Source of the DNA: a virus
Length of the DNA stretch: 32,030 bases
IMG/VR virus record: IMGVR_UViG_3300027771_000058
Location: 1 to 32,030 of that record
Strand: one strand, 5' to 3'
Positions within the stretch are counted from its first letter, which is position 1; every line of letters starts with the position of its first letter. Both the position numbers and the translations under genes were made by a program. Of this stretch, positions 16,242-26,000 are shown piece after piece. The notes beneath the pieces are model-generated. The model did no database searches and was not told the origin of the DNA. It worked only from the letters and a program-made list of their open reading frames with translations.

Positions 16242-17049
16242 TGATATAATCCTCTATTGATGTCCATTGCATATCTATTGCATTGTTAAGTTTAGTTAAG
16301 TTTGCACAAGTATACTTTTGGTATTGTGCCTTTATATTTTCAGGTATTGGAATATAATTTATAGCAGCGTTATGCTTTGTAGCAATTGCGTTTGCTACTG
16401 TTTCAAAACTAGTAGCTGTGCCAGTACCAATATTGAATATTCCAGTTGATTCCGAATCAAACATAAGTTCGTGTGCGCGACAAATGTCTTCGACACAAAC
16501 AAAGTCTCTTTTAAAATTTTCGCTATCTTCAAACAGTGTTATAACACCATCTTCTTTTGCTTGCTTAGTAAACTTAGTATAAGGACTTGCTTGATCGCCT
16601 TTATTTTCTTCCCCAGGCCCGTATACGTTAAAGTAACGGAAGCCTTGTATTTTAATTTGAAACTCTTCAAGATACTGATTTAAGAATCTGTCAAACAAAT
16701 ACTTTGACCATGCATAAGGACTTACTGGAAGTAACTTGCCATCTTCTGTAAAATGCGTAGTAGGACCGTATACACTTGCACTTGATGCGTATTGTAAATT
16801 AGTACCAAAGTTTTCGCATATCTGTGCAAGCCTAACAGTAAACTCAAAGTTTTGCTCTAGTATTTGATCTACATCAGTGTATGTTGTACTACTAATTGCA
16901 CCAGTGTGTATACACCAGTCAAAGTCTTCTGTACTAGGAAGTACACCAGGTTGCCATTCCCATCCTTCTACTTCGTGACCTTTACTTTGTAAGTAATGTG
17001 AAATATTTTTACCAATAAAGCCGTTGTTTCCTGTGACTAATATTTTCAT
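16228..17049 (-). CDS. hldD: ADP-L-glycero-D-manno-heptose 6-epimerase (HldD)
   Basis: This 273-residue NAD(P)-dependent short-chain epimerase has the Rossmann motif TGNNGFIG (6-13), the catalytic serines in YASSASVYG and the Y112-x3-K116 pair (SPYAWSK). The C-terminal block FNIGTGTATSFETVANAIA, then INYIPIPENIKAQYQKYT, closely parallels HldD and separates it from general nucleotide-sugar epimerases. It would convert ADP-D-glycero- to ADP-L-glycero-D-manno-heptose. Its start overlaps the hldE stop by ATGA, so the two consecutive pathway enzymes are coupled. It is slightly shorter than the bacterial enzyme (about 310 residues). Confidence 0.85.
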   Translation of the reverse strand: MKILVTGNNGFIGKNISHYLQSKGHEVEGWEWQPGVLPSTEDFDWCIHTGAISSTTYTDVDQILEQNFEFTVRLAQICENFGTNLQYASSASVYGPTTHFTEDGKLLPVSPYAWSKYLFDRFLNQYLEEFQIKIQGFRYFNVYGPGEENKGDQASPYTKFTKQAKEDGVITLFEDSENFKRDFVCVEDICRAHELMFDSESTGIFNIGTGTATSFETVANAIATKHNAAINYIPIPENIKAQYQKYTCANLTKLNNAIDMQWTSIEDYINGTN

Positions 17050-18185
17050 TTGCTTGCCTCTATAATCTGTGTTGTTGAATATCCTTCAACTGTAGGCACA
17101 AGATGCACCTCGGCCAAATCGTGTCCTACAACTTGTTCTACTGTGTAATCACCGCCCTTTACAATAACGTGCGGCTTTAATTTTTTAATTAATTCGTATG
17201 GTGTATCGTCACTAAACAATACAACTCTATCAACCCAAGGCAATATTTCTAATTGTCTAATACGCTTTACAGCATCATTAATAGGCCGGTCTTCACCCTT
17301 AAGACGCTTTACACTTGCGTCACTATTAATACCTACAACTAGTTTATCGCCAAGCGATTTTGCTTCAGCTAGTAGCTCAAAATGTCCTGTGTGTAGTATG
17401 TCAAAGACTCCGTTAGTAAACACTATGCGTTCTTCTATATCGCTTATAGTAAGCGTGTGTGTGCCTACGTGCTTAACTGCTTCCCTAGAACCTTTAACGG
17501 CAAGTTCTAAACACTTCTTATGATTGTATTGCTTTGTTAATCCGTATACAAATGCGGCCAAGAAACAATCTCCTGCTCCTGTAACATCTGATACTTCTAC
17601 AGATTCAACTGGAATATTGTAATCTACATTATCTATTGTAGCAACAACATTGTCCCCGGCTTTAGTTGTAATAATATTACTTTGCCAAAACGTAAATCCA
17701 AACTCGTCAAACTCTTTGTAGTTGGGCTTTACTAGCCATGCGTCCTTATACTGATTTGCATGTTCTTTAGGATCTACAATTATTTTACAATTAAATTTGT
17801 TAATGTGTTCGATAATTTCAAGCGACTCGTCTAGTACACCTTTATTATAATCACTTAATATAACATACTCGTATTCTGAAAAGTCTTGTAACTCTATAGT
17901 TTCTAATACCGCCTTACCATCTGCACTTATGTCATCGTCTATACGTGTAATATAATGTCCGTCACAAATTACTCTAGTTTTAATACTACTAGGTTGCCCA
18001 GTCTCAAACAGTGTTACATCTACACCTAGGCTTTTTAAGTTTTCATAAACAAGTCCAGCACCTCCAAGTGATTCAACTTCACGCCGATACTTGACAACAG
18101 GCACAGGAGCCTCAGGACTTAGTCGTTCTGAAGTGCCATAGATATATTTGTCGATTATTACATCACCAAGAACTAGTACTTTCAT
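17046..18185 (-). CDS. hldE: bifunctional heptose kinase/adenylyltransferase (HldE)
   Basis: The protein has 379 residues in two domains. The PfkB-type kinase (1 to about 245) starts KVLVLGDVIIDKY, has LSPEAPVPVV and GGAGLVYENL, and ends in the catalytic DVTGAGDCF (D206). The adenylyltransferase (about 253-379) has FTNGVFDILHTGH (HxGH at 265-268), LKGEDRP, VKGGDY and GYSTTQII. Together they make ADP-D-glycero-beta-D-manno-heptose from the 7-phosphate; a GmhB-type phosphatase acts in between. It is about 100 residues shorter than the E. coli enzyme (about 477), mainly in the kinase half. The start is supported by the family N-terminus. No Shine-Dalgarno is visible, and the promoter spacing suggests a leaderless mRNA. 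Confidence 0.88.
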   Translation of the reverse strand: MKVLVLGDVIIDKYIYGTSERLSPEAPVPVVKYRREVESLGGAGLVYENLKSLGVDVTLFETGQPSSIKTRVICDGHYITRIDDDISADGKAVLETIELQDFSEYEYVILSDYNKGVLDESLEIIEHINKFNCKIIVDPKEHANQYKDAWLVKPNYKEFDEFGFTFWQSNIITTKAGDNVVATIDNVDYNIPVESVEVSDVTGAGDCFLAAFVYGLTKQYNHKKCLELAVKGSREAVKHVGTHTLTISDIEERIVFTNGVFDILHTGHFELLAEAKSLGDKLVVGINSDASVKRLKGEDRPINDAVKRIRQLEILPWVDRVVLFSDDTPYELIKKLKPHVIVKGGDYTVEQVVGHDLAEVHLVPTVEGYSTTQIIEASK

Positions 18186-18191
18186 AGTGTT

Positions 18192-18220
18192 ATTATACTA
18201 TCTTTTAGGTTATTTGTCAA
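18192..18220 (-). promoter_or_regulatory. perfect-consensus sigma-70 promoter of the hldE operon
   Basis: On the minus strand TTGACA (18220-18215), a 17-bp spacer and TATAAT (18197-18192) are both perfect. It overlaps the end of the Nudix gene. Only six bases separate the -10 from the hldE ATG (18185), so the expected start site is at or next to the start codon. Confidence 0.88.
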
Positions 18221-18658: not shown

Positions 18659-20071
18659 TTACCCGCCGAGTTCAATTCTCCATGTACCAACTGGATAATC
18701 ACCGTCTACACTTAACAACCATTCGTTGTTATTAAATCTATACTGTACGCTTGTGTTTAAGTTGGTAGTGTATGTAATTTCAGTTGCAGCACTTGCATCG
18801 AACACAATATTCCACTTAGCACCGTCCCATTCAATAATATCGTTAGCACTTGCAACTAGCGCACTAGCATCTGCATTTTGCCATGCTACCGGAGATTGAG
18901 TTGCAGTAGCACTACCTACATCATCTAATAGTAACAGTCTAACACCACTAGTTTTGATAGCAGTTGGATTATAGTTAGTTGGGTCAATAATATAATCAAT
19001 ACTAGTTCTAGCATCTATTACAGTATCACTTGGAAAACTATCAGCATCCCAATTAATTGCTATTTTACCTTCATCAAATGGATGTAGTGTAAATGTACCT
19101 GTAACTGTTTTAGCATTATCGCTATTTGTAAAATAAATTCGACTTACATCAGCAGCATACATTCCAGGAAGAACTTCGAATATCTCTCTCCAGTTCTTAT
19201 TACCAACTATGCCATTTGAAAACAACTGAGCTTCTGTTCCATTTACAAACGCACCCCATGTTGCATAATTAACATTAGCCATATTTGCTGCTGTAGATGA
19301 TTGTGCTGATCTTCCAAATTTACCTTCAGTAACACCAGGACGCGGCACATCATCATATGCATTTAATATAGGCTTACTTACGCCGTCTTCAATAGTACCT
19401 AGAGTTTCATCAAACATACTTGTAATGATGTTTGTAATAACGCCCATCTTGCGTACTTTAGTAGGTGGACTAATGTATATAGGTATAGTAAATGTAAGTG
19501 TGCAAATATCTATTTCACTATCGATACCAACAGGAACACTTCTATTTGACCAAGTTACATTTTCTAAATTAATAACACTAATACTAGTCCAGTCAATAAA
19601 ATTATCTGTAGTTTGCATTTCTAGACTAGGATTAAATAATACAAGTATTTGTTCTAATAACTGTAATTTTTGATCTGTATTTGTTGTCCAAATATCTGCA
19701 TTTAATCGCATCATATAAGGAGTAGGAATTAAACGCTCGACTGTATAGTTTTTACCTTGAGTATTTAAATATTCTTTATTTACAGTGTCGTACTCACGTT
19801 CTCTAATATTTGTTTTGCGTGTATATGTTGCGTCTGTTAGACGATCTTTATCTAACTCTAATCCTGTTAAATAAACAGCAATACGTGGCGCACTAGGTAG
19901 CTTGTTCTCGCTATTCTCTCTAATGATGTTTGCTACTTGACGAGATAAATCACCGTAAGTAACAGGCACTTCTTTTTGCCCGCCTTTTCCGTCTTGTACA
20001 GGAAAGTTTGCAAGTACTCGCATCATTTGTGTAAGGTACCGTCTTACTTGACCATCGTAAAAATGTTGCAT
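18659..20071 (-). CDS. 15: proximal tail sheath stabiliser, T4 gp15-like
   Basis: This 470-residue protein has an N-terminal half that follows T4 gp15: HFYDGQVRRYLTQMMRVLAN at the start, a KEVPVTYGD strand, LIPTPYMMRLNADIWT, EQILVLFNPSLEM and TFTIPIYISPPTKVRKMGVI. In T4, gp15 forms the hexameric ring that caps the tail tube and sheath and joins the neck. T4 gp15 has 272 residues; about 200 extra C-terminal residues here contain short beta modules (IEWDGAKWNIVF, YRFNNNEWLLS). Its ATG overlaps the gp14 stop by one base. It is transcribed away from gp13, the opposite of T4. Confidence 0.8.
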   Translation of the reverse strand: MQHFYDGQVRRYLTQMMRVLANFPVQDGKGGQKEVPVTYGDLSRQVANIIRENSENKLPSAPRIAVYLTGLELDKDRLTDATYTRKTNIREREYDTVNKEYLNTQGKNYTVERLIPTPYMMRLNADIWTTNTDQKLQLLEQILVLFNPSLEMQTTDNFIDWTSISVINLENVTWSNRSVPVGIDSEIDICTLTFTIPIYISPPTKVRKMGVITNIITSMFDETLGTIEDGVSKPILNAYDDVPRPGVTEGKFGRSAQSSTAANMANVNYATWGAFVNGTEAQLFSNGIVGNKNWREIFEVLPGMYAADVSRIYFTNSDNAKTVTGTFTLHPFDEGKIAINWDADSFPSDTVIDARTSIDYIIDPTNYNPTAIKTSGVRLLLLDDVGSATATQSPVAWQNADASALVASANDIIEWDGAKWNIVFDASAATEITYTTNLNTSVQYRFNNNEWLLSVDGDYPVGTWRIELGG

Positions 20072-21231
20072 TATGAATTATCCGCCTTAGGTTTAAGTGC
20101 TTTGGACAAGCTTTGTCGCTCAGGCACAGATACCCCGTCTATAGTATTAGTATTAGTGTTATTAATAAACGACGATTTCTGTGTTGCTCGTTGAAGTGTA
20201 TTACTTAGTGTCATTCTAATATCGTCAGTAACTTTAACCCAACGTGCGCCGTCATATCGAAACATTCTATTTGGCAAAAAGTCTGAACGTAAAAAGTAGT
20301 CGCCGTCTTCGTTATTAGTTGGAAATTGTATGCCAAACCCAAATGGTGCACCGTTTGGAGCTTCGGAGCCTGTTCCTACTAAGTATCCTGAATAACCTTC
20401 TCTATTAGGTTTAGCACTAACTGCGTCTGCACCCATTAAATTACTTGCATCTATATCAGCATCATCTGCTGTTTGTAATGCAACACTACCGTCTTCATTA
20501 GTAGCAATAGAGTAATAATGGTTTGTGTCAAACCCACTCTTAGGAGCATCTACTGCTGCTTGTGCAACTACTGCATCAGAAATTTGCATTTCTTTTTCGT
20601 AAGTTGATAATAAATCTCTAAGCGTATTAGCAGAGCCTTCTTCCATAGGAAGATCCATTATTTCTGCGTATTCTTGACCATCGTATATCTGCTTTAGTTT
20701 TAAACGATATAAGTGTGGATACCAAGTATGGCTAAATCCTTCTGCTGCTCGGTTAACATCTTCTACAACGTAAAACCGTTTAAGTGCAACACTATGATCA
20801 TTAAGAGCATGTTCGTCTTTTAAGTGCGGCAATTCAATTACATCACCGCTCATTATTTTTCTACCAAGTGTTTTAACACTACTATTAATGTGTATGGTTA
20901 GCATTAGTGTATCGTTGCTTAGAAAAAGTCCAAATTGCGATAAGTCAAAGTCGATATCTTGAACATTGTAAATGCCACGCATACTATAAATGTCAGGATC
21001 ATACTTTCTGTCTCTGTTTTCAAGAAATAATAAGTCTTGTATATTAGTTTCTTTAACAGCATCATAAGTAGGTTGATCAGCAGTGCCTTCCCCTACCGCA
21101 GGGTTTTCTGCACCTAAGAATTTGTGAATATTAAGGTCGGTGCCGCCGATAGTAAACATTTCCTGGATTTGTTTGTCTAAGAAATAATAATCGTTGCCAC
21201 GTTCTGGTTTATATAATGATAAGCGAGGGAT
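20071..21231 (-). CDS. 14: neck protein, T4 gp14-like, with an apparent AUC start
   Basis: The neck protein that, with gp13, completes the head for tail joining. The first ATG is at 21159, but the frame stays open and clearly coding for 24 more codons upstream (xPRLSLYKPERGNDYYFLD, then KQIQE), which read like the conserved N-terminus of marine T4-like gp14. In that stretch there is no ATG, GTG or TTG before a stop at 21261-21259. The best start is ATC (21231-21229), 7 nt after AGGAG (21243-21239), giving 386 residues. The central region (FGLFLSNDTLMLTIHINSSV, then SGDVIELPHLKD and FYVVEDVNRA) aligns in pattern with T4 gp14. Transcription is from a late promoter at 21263-21256. Confidence 0.75.
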   Translation of the reverse strand: MPRLSLYKPERGNDYYFLDKQIQEMFTIGGTDLNIHKFLGAENPAVGEGTADQPTYDAVKETNIQDLLFLENRDRKYDPDIYSMRGIYNVQDIDFDLSQFGLFLSNDTLMLTIHINSSVKTLGRKIMSGDVIELPHLKDEHALNDHSVALKRFYVVEDVNRAAEGFSHTWYPHLYRLKLKQIYDGQEYAEIMDLPMEEGSANTLRDLLSTYEKEMQISDAVVAQAAVDAPKSGFDTNHYYSIATNEDGSVALQTADDADIDASNLMGADAVSAKPNREGYSGYLVGTGSEAPNGAPFGFGIQFPTNNEDGDYFLRSDFLPNRMFRYDGARWVKVTDDIRMTLSNTLQRATQKSSFINNTNTNTIDGVSVPERQSLSKALKPKADNS

Positions 21232-21255
21232 AGCTCTTCTCCTATTCGTTATACA

Positions 21256-21263
21256 TATTTATC
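21256..21263 (-). promoter_or_regulatory. T4-type late promoter, minus strand (gp14-gp15 unit)
   Basis: Read on the minus strand, GATAAATA runs from 21263 to 21256. It lies 24 bp before the proposed ATC start of gp14 and only 5 bp from the gp13 promoter on the other strand. Confidence 0.75.
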
Positions 21264-21268
21264 GTTAA

Positions 21269-21278
21269 GATAAATACT
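21269..21278 (+). promoter_or_regulatory. T4-type late promoter (gp13)
   Basis: GATAAATACT (core 21270-21276) lies 15 bp before the gp13 ATG at 21294, with TGGAGAA as the ribosome site between. It is divergent from the minus-strand late promoter at 21263-21256. Confidence 0.8.
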
Positions 21279-21293
21279 ATTGGAGAACTTCAC

Positions 21294-22049
21294 ATGACAA
21301 CAGCGACACAAAAACAAGAAGTATTTGATTATGTACACACATTTCTCGGAGGAGGAATGGTTGATGTTGAACTTGATCCAATACATTACCAAGCAGCCTT
21401 AACAAAGGCACTAACACGTTTTAGACAGCGTAGTGAAAATAGTGTAGAAGAGAGCTATTTGTTCTTAACTACGGTTGTTGATCAAAACGAATATGTATTA
21501 CCTAGCGTGGTAATGGAAGTTCGTAAATTGCATCGCAGGAGCATTGGATCACGTGGAAACGGCGGCAACGGCGGCAGTTTGTTTGAACCGTTTAACGCAG
21601 CTATGACAAACACATATTTGCTATCAGGATCTAAATTAGGCGGACTAGCAACGTACGATATGTTTTCACAGCATCAAGAATTAGTAGGACGTATGTTTGG
21701 CTCAGAAATTGAGTTTAAATGGAACAACACTAATAAGAAACTAACATTGCTACAACGCCCTAGAGCAGAAGAAGAAATTTTACTTTTTGCTTATAACTAT
21801 CGTCCAGATAGCGAGTTATTGAGTGATTACTTAGCAGTGCAGTGGATTAAAGATTATACACTTGCAGCATGTAAGTATATGCTTGGCGAAGCACGTTCAA
21901 AGTTTGCTACTATTGCAGGCCCACAAGGCGGTTCCACGCTAAACGGCGACACTCTAAAAGCAGAAGCACAGCAAGAAATGGATAAACTTGAAATTGAAGT
22001 ATCTATGGCAGTTGCTGGCGGTACAGGATACGGCTTCATAATAGGCTAA
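21294..22049 (+). CDS. 13: neck protein, T4 gp13-like
   Basis: This 251-residue protein resembles the gp13 neck proteins of T4-like cyanophages. It has YVHTFLGGGMVDVELDPIHY with ALTKALTRFRQRSENSVEESY at the N-terminus, DQNEYVLPSVVMEVRKLHR, and a C-terminal LAVQWIKDYTLAACKYMLGEARSKFA helix. In T4, gp13 and gp14 form the head-to-tail connector. It has GGAG about 9 nt before the ATG and a dedicated late promoter. It is followed directly by a sigma-70 promoter for an unrelated early gene, with no independent terminator except the RNA hairpin at 22063-22103. Confidence 0.8.
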   Translation: MTTATQKQEVFDYVHTFLGGGMVDVELDPIHYQAALTKALTRFRQRSENSVEESYLFLTTVVDQNEYVLPSVVMEVRKLHRRSIGSRGNGGNGGSLFEPFNAAMTNTYLLSGSKLGGLATYDMFSQHQELVGRMFGSEIEFKWNNTNKKLTLLQRPRAEEEILLFAYNYRPDSELLSDYLAVQWIKDYTLAACKYMLGEARSKFATIAGPQGGSTLNGDTLKAEAQQEMDKLEIEVSMAVAGGTGYGFIIG

Positions 22050-22055
22050 AAACAC

Positions 22056-22084
22056 TTGACAGCTCCTAACTTTTAATGTATAAT
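22056..22084 (+). promoter_or_regulatory. perfect-consensus sigma-70 promoter of the dNMP kinase-like gene
   Basis: TTGACA (22056-22061), a 17-bp spacer and TATAAT (22079-22084) are both perfect. The expected start is about 22091, giving a short leader before the ATG at 22110. The spacer contains the left arm of the inverted repeat at 22063-22103. Confidence 0.9.
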
Positions 22085-22103
22085 ATATATAATTAGTTAG
22101 GAG
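22063..22103 (+). promoter_or_regulatory. inverted repeat masking the ribosome site in read-through RNA
   Basis: CTCCTAACT (22063-22071) is the exact reverse complement of AGTTAGGAG (22095-22103). The right arm is the Shine-Dalgarno of the next gene; the left arm lies between -35 and -10. RNA started at this promoter lacks the left arm, whereas RNA coming from gp13 carries both arms and would hide the ribosome site. No T-run follows, so it looks like a translational rather than a transcriptional control. Confidence 0.7.
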
Positions 22104-22109
22104 ATTCAT

Positions 22110-22619
22110 ATGAACAAACCCAAGTTATTAGTAATAGGTCATGGACGACATGGTAAAGACACAGTTTGTGAGATGCTACGTGACAGTTACGGGTACACTT
22201 TTGAAAGCAGTTCGAAATTTTGCAGTTTACAATTTATATATAATGACCTAAAGGAAAAGTATGGATACGCTAATGAGGAAGAGTGTTATGCTGACAGGCA
22301 TAATCACAGAGCAGAATGGTATAATGCTATTTGTGATTATAATGTTCCTGATGCAGCAACTTTAGGTAGAGAGATGTTTGAAGCTTACGATATCTATTGT
22401 GGGTTACGCAACAAACGTGAATTCTTTGCAATGCAAAACACTGGCGTATTTGATTACTGTATTTGGGTTGATCGCAGTATACATCTAGAAGCTGAATCTA
22501 CCGACTCAATGAGCTTAGAGCAATGGATGTCTGACTTTACAATTGACAACAATGGCACATTAGAAGATTTAAAGTTTAATTTAGATCAGTTAATGACTCA
22601 CTTAGAAGTCAGGACGTAA
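22110..22619 (+). CDS. deoxynucleoside monophosphate kinase-like P-loop protein
   Basis: This 169-residue protein has an N-terminal P-loop, VIGHGRHGKDTVCEML (G10-x4-G-K-D-T), as in phage dNMP kinases (T4 gp1-like) that phosphorylate dNMPs for DNA synthesis. Aromatic and acidic residues at 70-130 (DAATLGREMFEAYDIY, then GLRNKREFFAM) are typical of the substrate lid. It is shorter than T4 gp1 (241 residues), so substrate range is unclear. The strong early promoter fits a nucleotide-metabolism role. TTAGGAG precedes the ATG by 6 nt. It overlaps the end of the convergent HNH-like gene by 18 bp. Confidence 0.7.
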   Translation: MNKPKLLVIGHGRHGKDTVCEMLRDSYGYTFESSSKFCSLQFIYNDLKEKYGYANEEECYADRHNHRAEWYNAICDYNVPDAATLGREMFEAYDIYCGLRNKREFFAMQNTGVFDYCIWVDRSIHLEAESTDSMSLEQWMSDFTIDNNGTLEDLKFNLDQLMTHLEVRT

Positions 22620-22937
22620 ATCTCCCTGCTTCCAGCGTATACCTTCTTTTTGTATTGTGCGCTGACAGTTAGCACATATAGTTTTAAGATTAGTGTGTCT
22701 GCAATTCTTTAAATCTCCATCCATGTGAAATACATTAAACACTTCTGGGTACGTACTTCTAAACCCGCATTTCTCACATGAATCTTTCTTATCGTATCCA
22801 CGTTGTTTCCATAACGGTATTCCGTGACCAATGCCATTACGCAAACACGTTTCGCATTTCTTTCTATAATAAGTTTTTCCATCTTTGCGGTAGTTAATAG
22901 CCGCCGGTCGTTGCTTGCATATACATAAAGGTCTCAT
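22602..22937 (-). CDS. HNH-like zinc-ribbon protein
   Basis: This 111-residue basic protein has four cysteine pairs (C5/C7, C28/C31, C54/C57, C88/C91) and an HNH-type core, FHMDGDLKN, then NLKTICANCQ (H71, D73, N83, C88, C91). The closing histidine of the HNH signature is replaced by Q92, so nuclease activity is uncertain. Proteins like this are frequent in marine T4-like phages and are usually listed as endonuclease-like or hypothetical. GAGG lies about 10 nt before the ATG, partly within a small CACC/GGTG hairpin. No clear promoter is visible; the gene is inserted convergently between late genes. Confidence 0.65.
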   Translation of the reverse strand: MRPLCICKQRPAAINYRKDGKTYYRKKCETCLRNGIGHGIPLWKQRGYDKKDSCEKCGFRSTYPEVFNVFHMDGDLKNCRHTNLKTICANCQRTIQKEGIRWKQGDLRPDF

Positions 22938-23004
22938 ATTGTATTTACCTCACCTTTTCGGTGCCTTTTTCGGGTGTGTTTGTTAGGTGTTTTATTGTCA
23001 ATGT

Positions 23005-23014
23005 AATAAATACT
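23005..23014 (+). promoter_or_regulatory. T4-type late promoter (gp18 sheath)
   Basis: AATAAATACT (core 23006-23012) lies 42 bp upstream of the sheath ATG, leaving a leader with AGGAGA just before the start. The bases after the core (CTGTA) are shared with the gp19 promoter. Confidence 0.75.
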
Positions 23015-23056
23015 GTATAAGAACACAAACACTTACCATCCAACAGGAGAGATAAC

Positions 23057-26000
23057 ATGGCATTAGTATCACCAGGTGTAGAAGTCAAAGTAATTGACGA
23101 ATCATTCTACACACCAGCAGCGGCTGGAACGGTCCCTATGATCTTTGTAGTTACAGCTAGTAATAAAACTAAAAGTAGCGGCACAGGAACAGCAGTAGGT
23201 ACTACTAAAACAAACGCAGGCAAACCATACTTAATCACCAGCCAACGCGAGCTAGGTGAAACATTTGGCGATCCACTATTTTACAGTGACACCAACGGTA
23301 ATATGATTCACGGCGGAGAGCTTAACGAGTACGGTTTACAAGCTGCTTACTCTACATTAGGCGTTTCGAATCGTGCATATGTAGTTCGCGCAGATTTAGA
23401 CGCAACAGAGCTTACAGCAAGTGCAACAGCACCAGGTGGCGAAGCAGCAAACAATGCATACTGGAATGATACTAGCATTAGTAACTACGGTATACTTGAA
23501 TGGAACGGCTCGGCAGTTAGTGTTGTAGGCGGACAAAGCTTTACAGCGCAATCACGCACGGTACTTACAGTAGTAACTGACTTAGTTGGTAACGCATTAG
23601 CTGGAGTACCAAAAGCATCAATTGGCCAAATTGGCGATTATGCAATTGACGCAAACGACACAATGAACCGTTTGTATTACAAGTCACCAGGATATGGCAC
23701 AACTGCACAAAGAGCAACTAACACAGGTACTTGGGTAGAAGTCGGCGGCAATCCTTGGAAGGCAAGTTGGGCTGCAACACGCGGCACAACAACAAATCCA
23801 GTACTAACTACAAGTGAAACTATTAGCATTAACGGTACTGCTGTTGCATTAACAGGTACAACTATTGCCCAGCTTGTTGGAATTATTAACGCAGCAGGTA
23901 TTGCAGGCGTAACATCAGCATTAGTTGATGGATCAATTGAGCTTTATGCAGATGCAGCAAGTCAGTCAAACGGTTCAGTTGCTGATGGCAAAATAGCAGT
24001 TGCTGAAGGCTCAGCTGGATTGATGGGTGACTTAGGTATAACAGCAGCAACATACAGCGGTCCAAGATTAGAAGCAGCACCACATACTAGTGTTCCTACA
24101 TATAAAACTGGAGCAACTTCTCCAGCACCAAGTGGAAGTGTTTGGATTAAAACAACTACTCCAAATGGCGGAGCAAACATTAGTGTAAAGCAGTACAGCA
24201 CAGCTACACAGCTTTGGTCAACTGTAACAGCACCAATGTATACTACAGCACAAGGCGCAATTTACGGACTTGATAAAACAGGCGGCGGTGCAAATCTTGC
24301 AGCAGGCGCACTATATGTTAAGACTAACGTAGACGAGCTTGCTAACCCAATTGGTAACTACAAGTTATATTCTAGAGTAGCGTCAGGCGCAACTAGCGTT
24401 ACTGGTACTACCGTAGCCGCTGCCGTAACAGCAGCAACTTACACATTTACTATACAAGAAACTAAAGCTAATAGTGCAGTACTAACATCAGCAGTAACAG
24501 TAAGTGTTACATCTACAGCAGCTTCTACTGATGCTGAATTACTTGCAGCAGCTATTAACGCTAAAGGATTAGTTAATGTTGTAGCATTAGTTGACGCAAA
24601 CAATAAAGTAGTAATCCAGCACAAATTAGGCGGCGACATTTATCTTGTTGATACCGACGGCGGACTAGCACTATACGGTTTTGCAGCAGCAACTACAGCT
24701 AACTTATACACTGGTCCAGCAGCAACTGGCTTAGTAGCTTCAAACTGGAAGCCATTGGTTTACACAGCATCAAGCACAGTTCCATTAAGTTTAGCAACAT
24801 CCAAGCAGTTATGGTACAACAGTGTAACTGATGAAGTTGACATCCTTGTACATAACGGTAGTGACTGGGTTGGTCTTAACTACGTTGGAGGATCTGGTTT
24901 ATCAGCAGTTTCTAGTCCATATAGTGGCACTAGTCCAGATGGTCCACAAGTAGCAGCAACAGCTCCTACTGTACAATCAGATCTAACAGCACTAGTTGAA
25001 GGTGATATTTGGGTTAGTACAGCAGACGTTGAAAGCTATCCAGCAATTTACAGATGGAACGCAACATTATTGAAGTGGATCTTACTTGATAAAGCAGATC
25101 AAACTACAGAAAATGGTGTACTATTTGCAGATGCACGAGAAGGCGACACAGGCGGTACAGCAACAGACGCACCAAGTGCAACTATTGCAGAACTACTTAT
25201 AAGTGACTTTGTAGACACAGATTGCCCAGATCCAGCACTATACCCAACTGGTATGTTGTTATGGAACTTACGCAAGAGTGGATTTAACGTTAAGCGTTTT
25301 GAGCGCACTTATGTAGACGTAGCTGCTAAAAACATCCGTCAGCAAACAGCTGGTGTTGGTGCTTCGATGGCAGCTTACTATCCACATCGTTGGGTTACTG
25401 ATTCAGGTAACCAAGCTGATGGTTCAGGCAGCTTTGGACGCCATGCACAACGCAAGAGTGTTGTACAAGCACTACAGGCATTAGTTAACAGCAATCAAGA
25501 TATACGTGACGAAGAAAGTCGTCAGTTTAACTTGTTAGCTGCTCCTGGTTATCCAGAGCTAATTGGTGAAATGATCACACTAAACTACGATAGACGCTTA
25601 ACAGCATTTGTTGTTGGTGATACACCATTCCGTTTAACACCAGATGCAACTTCATTAAATGAATGGGCAACTAACGTTAAACTAGCACTTGAAGATAATG
25701 ATGACGGTGCAGTAAGTAGAGACGAGTACTTAGCTATGTACTACGGTTCGGGCTTCTCAAGTGATAACGCTGGTAACAACATTGTTGTTCCACCAAGTCA
25801 CATGGCGCTACGTACTATTATACTAAACGACCAAGTTGCTTTCCCCTGGTTTGCTCCAGCAGGAACACGACGCGGTGGAGTAAGTAATGCTTCGAGTTCA
25901 GGTTATATTACTAGCGAAGGCGAATTTAAGTCAGTAGCATTGAACACAGGACAGCGCGATACATTGTATTCAAACGCAATTAACCCAATTACGTTCCTAG

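Follow-up and report, generated by a model that had tools for sequence, protein, structure and literature searches.

The dNMP kinase-like gene and the tryptophan halogenase gene of a virus described as marine and T4-like are each preceded by what is probably (a probability of roughly 0.75) a sigma-70 promoter nested in a hairpin that sequesters the ribosome-binding site, with the gene translated from its own promoter and not from read-through mRNA. The window, meaning the whole stretch of DNA analysed, is an IMG/VR virus record of 32,030 bases, carrying T4-like structural genes (tail sheath stabiliser (gp15), tail sheath, neck and tail-tube) along with auxiliary genes encoding tryptophan halogenase, 2OG-Fe(II) oxygenases and a carbamoyltransferase. 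No match emerged when the phage collection was searched for sequence nearly identical to positions 20000-24000. The features of the kinase locus are as follows.

21294-22049, + strand: neck / head-tail adaptor gene (phrog_211), late, co-directional with the kinase and 5' of it
22056-22061, + strand: -35 box TTGACA of the kinase promoter, matching 12/12 consensus positions together with the -10 box, with a 17-nt spacer
22063-22071, + strand: arm one, CTCCTAACT, inside the -35/-10 spacer and 5' of the predicted transcription start, by sequence a 9-bp perfect complement of arm two
22079-22084, + strand: -10 box TATAAT of the same 12/12 promoter, between both arms
22095-22103, + strand: arm two, AGTTAGGAG, holding the Shine-Dalgarno (SD) AGGAG at 22099-22103, from sequence and folding
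22110-22619, + strand: dNMP kinase-like gene (phrog_38514; weak matches to phrog_139 dNMP kinase and Pfam dNK)

The original prediction had described 22063-22071 as the exact complement of the SD-bearing 22095-22103 at a site devoid of a T-run, and the sequence agrees on both points, with nine perfect base pairs and no T-run. Read-through RNA crossing the site has a predicted fold of -16.7 kcal/mol with the SD within the stem, while RNA begun at the predicted start, near 22091 and upstream of the ATG at 22110, has a predicted fold of -0.1 kcal/mol. An arm match of at least 9 bp arose in 192 of 200,000 shuffled spacers (about 0.1%), and matches of this length occur in 2.3% of real spacer/leader pairs, compared with 0.2% of swapped pairs.

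The companion hairpin that had been proposed at position 667 is present, with 20 pairs, a predicted fold of -26.0 kcal/mol and a following TTTTTT.

667-672, + strand: -35 box TTGACA of the halogenase promoter
672-692, + strand: arm one of the 20-pair halogenase hairpin, which has one bulge (predicted fold as above)
690-695, + strand: -10 box TATACT at the hairpin tip
699-718, + strand: arm two, holding the SD GGAGG and followed by TTTTTT, from sequence and folding
723-2300, + strand: tryptophan halogenase gene (Pfam Trp_halogenase, 1e-103), controlled by the hairpin promoter at 667

The arms of the two window sites share no sequence, bearing out the earlier reading of unrelated sequences with one architecture. 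Seven relatives of the halogenase site (L201, L203-L208) each fold into 17-23 pairs despite sequence turnover, their arms varying from CTTCCG/CGGAG to CTCCTTTGAT/ATCAAAGGAG, with a sizeable internal loop in L201 only. A T-run lies directly 3' of the stem at the window site and in L201, L204 and L205, whereas L203, L206, L207 and L208 retain the stem without it; termination is therefore not the conserved property.

The kinase gene is flanked by late genes, a setting in which masking of read-through RNA would count. Late promoter cores of T4 type (NATAAATA) precede late genes of the window, at 21269 (neck), 23005 (sheath) and other positions.

21269-21276, + strand: core of a late-type promoter, GATAAATA, with the neck gene 25 nt downstream
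23005-23012, + strand: core of a late-type promoter, AATAAATA, preceding the tail-sheath gene and 3' of the kinase

Of 74 non-identical kinase loci, 53 have a late-type core placed in this way before the neck gene, against a background motif density of 0.17 per kb per strand. The neck-gene stop codon ends 7 nt 5' of the kinase -35 box, and a terminator scan from the neck stop to the kinase start predicted none, suggesting that termination between the two genes is not effective. With a late-type promoter before the neck gene and nothing predicted to stop transcription in between, late transcription should therefore enter the kinase unless stopped first, and late read-through at this locus is, as judged from sequence, well supported. 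Back-to-back late-type cores, at 21263 (-) and 21269 (+), lie between the neck gene and the gp15-side cluster. A 111-aa ORF, zinc-finger/HNH-like by eye, runs antisense between kinase and sheath at 22602-22937 (-), and the same position holds ORFs of 111-113 aa in L340, L369 and L558.

Under the proposed mechanism, polymerase entering from the late operon 5' of the site would transcribe both arms, and the read-through RNA would fold with its SD paired, leaving the kinase (or the halogenase) untranslated from the late polycistronic mRNA. Transcription from the nested promoter would start 3' of arm one, leaving the SD free and the gene translated, so that translation would be coupled to the gene's own, presumably early, promoter. 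The label "early" for both promoters rests on the sigma-70 consensus and on analogy with T4.

The enrichment of anti-SD pairing at sigma-70 promoters of related genomes, which the original prediction had proposed as its check, was computed and exceeded both the swapped and the non-promoter controls. The test set comprised related loci with promoters matching at least 11/12 consensus positions followed by an SD and an ORF, collapsed to 48 clusters, among which those of one gene family share ancestry while their regulatory sequences do not align. Loci from the first pattern scan were excluded from all statistics because that scan had selected for anti-SD sequence. The swap test compares spacer-leader duplex energy with that of swapped partners, a control retaining both spacer and SD motifs. 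Own pairs averaged -6.96 kcal/mol, compared with -4.84 kcal/mol (sd 0.27) for swapped pairs (0 of 5000 permutations), and 16 of the 48 clusters fell in the best 5% of spacer-leader pairing. Removing the kinase and halogenase families reduced the excess without abolishing it (p=0.015 over 26 clusters). Promoter-free SD starts of the same geometry, taken from the same phages, showed no mean excess (-4.14 vs -4.07, p=0.215); 13 of 400 formed a minor tail of strong stems within the best 1%. A held-out set of loci anchored on another gene, the query being apparently the sheath N-terminus, contributed 8 new clusters, giving p=0.023 when arm one was taken as far as the -10 box and p=0.067 otherwise; one cluster was in the best 5%, and L558 in this set has a perfect 10-bp match, GTTCTCCTAG/CTAGGAGAAC. 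A broad viral sample, for which TTGACA-17-TATAAT, GGAG and ATG were the sole criteria regardless of spacer content, gave 119 promoter clusters that again showed the pairing (0 of 4000 permutations, with 16 clusters in the best 5%). The SD-accessibility measure alone was not significant there (p=0.15).

Comparison of kinase orthologues, covering 80 viral loci with kinase relatives at 84-100% identity, found a TTGACA promoter just 5' of the kinase in nearly all of them, followed by promoter-to-ATG sequences of several unrelated classes. Near relatives (L031, L042) carry a 9-12-bp stem with G-U exchanges, L320, L345, L329 and L558 carry different stems, and some orthologues are leaderless. Among 59 distinct SD-type kinase sites, the SD is predicted to be paired in read-through RNA and open in own-promoter RNA in most, with about 10 behaving otherwise; L326, L054 and L293 have an SD promoter without predicted masking. 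Swapping in a foreign spacer weakened the predicted masking (0.44 vs 0.35 unpaired; S1). A phrog_139-type kinase in L211 and a similar protein in L340 occupy the same neck-kinase position and also have hairpin promoters. Cultured relatives of the kinase, in Rhodobacter, Marinobacter and Shewanella phages, lie within runs of nucleotide-metabolism or replication genes. Across consensus pairs of the halogenase and kinase alignments, 31 cells are G-U and 2 are A-C (15 vs 1 in one alignment and 16 vs 1 in the other), cells that are not independent, the sequences being related, and pair 15-41 of the kinase alignment is found as U-A, C-G and U-G. Such tolerance of G-U points to a helix in sense-strand RNA rather than in DNA. 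Among independent clusters the G-U excess is 13:5, compared with 56:34 in swapped pairs, and at this level the asymmetry is only suggestive.

Several other explanations of the complementarity were weighed. A hairpin serving chiefly as terminator of the upstream operon, overlapping the next promoter by happenstance, would account for the T-run after the stem at the window's halogenase site and in L201, L204 and L205, as well as in L373 and L077, but is unlikely given that the kinase site and four halogenase relatives have none, SD pairing being what persists. L373 is also one of three loci, with L394 and L411, encoding small 'GSLRYT.SGRK'-like proteins with strong promoters; its small-protein gene follows a replicative helicase, and the promoter lies within a long hairpin with a T-run and an SD. 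Decidedly unlikely is the proposal that two motifs, conserved independently of each other, happen to be complementary, namely the preference of this phage group for CTAA-like spacers and the TTAGGAG SD: CTAA does occur in the spacer of some leaderless, SD-free promoters, and some kinase clades show weak pairing of the CTAA/TTAGGAG kind, but the own-pair excess stays large against a swap control that keeps both motifs, and many stems (L320, L278, L558 and the halogenase set) have unrelated letters.

An inverted repeat acting as a DNA operator, with a repressor straddling the -10 box, agrees with a -10 box flanked by arms and with the true spacer palindromes found at some sampled phage promoters. 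It is nevertheless very improbable, since the arms differ wholly between sites and hence offer no common binding site, orthologue mismatches are G-U and not A-C, and arm two overlaps the SD. The palindromes in question are perfect and fill the -35/-10 spacer at L073:8778 (+) (CACCAAGACGTCTTGGTG) and at syn9 18628 (NC_008296; CACCCTGGACAGGGTG); they are likely repressor operators, a different design. Chance, helped by selection of a striking site in the original prediction, could draw on the many candidate sites in the window and on a 9-bp match rate of 0.1-0.2% of trials, but replication in independent and held-out loci makes this the least credible of the explanations. The nested promoter within an SD-masking RNA hairpin remains the preferred reading.

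The pairing effect is confined to a minority of promoters, and the general rule that had been envisaged for early promoters does not hold, many such promoters being leaderless and some SD promoters unmasked. The suggestion of selection for silencing read-through from late genes stands in part: enrichment and co-variation argue for selected anti-SD pairing, and a late-type promoter lies upstream at the kinase locus. Several strong examples in the broad sample lie 3' of DNA-metabolism genes (helicase, RNR, MazG), and silencing of read-through therefore fits better than silencing of late genes; in general, the hairpins may guard against read-through of any kind. Orientation of the upstream gene did not set hairpin promoters apart, since nearly all promoters, with or without a hairpin, are co-directional with it. 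In PA5oct, Phosso, SCTP-2, T4 and cyanophage records, an exact-consensus promoter scan inspected by eye revealed no clear instance of the design; for T4 this negative extends only to exact-consensus promoters, of which it has none.

The closest known parallel comes from T4 genes e, soc, 49 and I-TevI, in which the SD is sequestered on upstream transcripts, with a late promoter giving unmasked RNA for e and I-TevI (PMC3014915, PMC2988022); the genes under such hairpin control are all late genes (PMC2988022). As in this class, the SD is predicted by folding to be paired on RNA started upstream, with support from swap tests and co-variation, and the transcript of the nested promoter is predicted to be without the 5' arm. 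The order is reversed, however: in T4 the nested promoter is late (TATAAATA) and the masked transcripts are early or middle, whereas here the nested promoter is TTGACA-17-TATAAT and the late-type motif lies upstream. The stems here also differ from the T4 class in that each gene has its own, unrelated stem sequence. In IS10 and IS50, the transposase promoter lies near an inverted repeat, and the transposase start is hidden by RNA folding only on transcripts that read in from outside. Those elements shield a transposon from host transcription, whereas the present design would concern gene timing within a phage, and its genes encode a dNMP kinase-like protein and a tryptophan halogenase instead of a transposase. 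The morons of lambdoid phages are extra genes inserted with their own promoter among late genes; to our knowledge, their description includes no masking hairpin. PeSL, reportedly described by Arbiol in 2010 and Comeau in 2014, is said to be a composite promoter-terminator cassette for recombination in T4-type phages. PeSL cassettes (see PMC4503421) share with the present sites an early promoter and an intergenic stem-loop in T4-like phages, and differ in that the arms here share no sequence between sites and pair with the SD.

If the reading is correct, the T4 hairpin device would be an instance of a general, reversible logic in which a hairpin enclosing a promoter selects the transcript to be translated, and by which the onset of late transcription could turn a gene either on or off. 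It would account for early metabolic genes placed among structural genes without late production, supply a sequence signature by which further cases could be sought in phage genomes, and offer a compact insulation part, a promoter with a built-in lock against read-through.

A third strong sigma-70 promoter of the window has neither SD nor hairpin.

18192-18220, - strand: sigma-70 promoter (12/12) from the promoter scan, apparently leaderless, with the ATG (18185) at the predicted start

The gene 3' of it, at 17046-18185, is HldE-like (sugar kinase/nucleotidyltransferase). Among 53 strong-promoter clusters of related loci, the distance from the -10 box to the ATG is exactly 6 in 14 and 5 in one; no cluster has 7 or 8, most of the remainder lie at 17-37, and no background TATAAT sequence had an ATG at distance 6. 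Leaderless promoters are typical of the HldE-like gene and of some dNMP kinase orthologues. Genes with the ATG at 6 should, from their sequence, be translated from 5'-terminal AUGs, and their read-through RNA would offer ribosomes no SD. It is tentatively proposed, at somewhat less than even odds, that hairpin masking and the leaderless start are interchangeable devices tying translation of genes in late operons to their own sigma-70 promoter. Such an arrangement would mirror the late-gene hairpins of T4 and be common in marine T4-like phages. Promoter-locked translation would itself be the selected trait, since kinase orthologues at the same locus carry the hairpin in some phages and a leaderless start in others.
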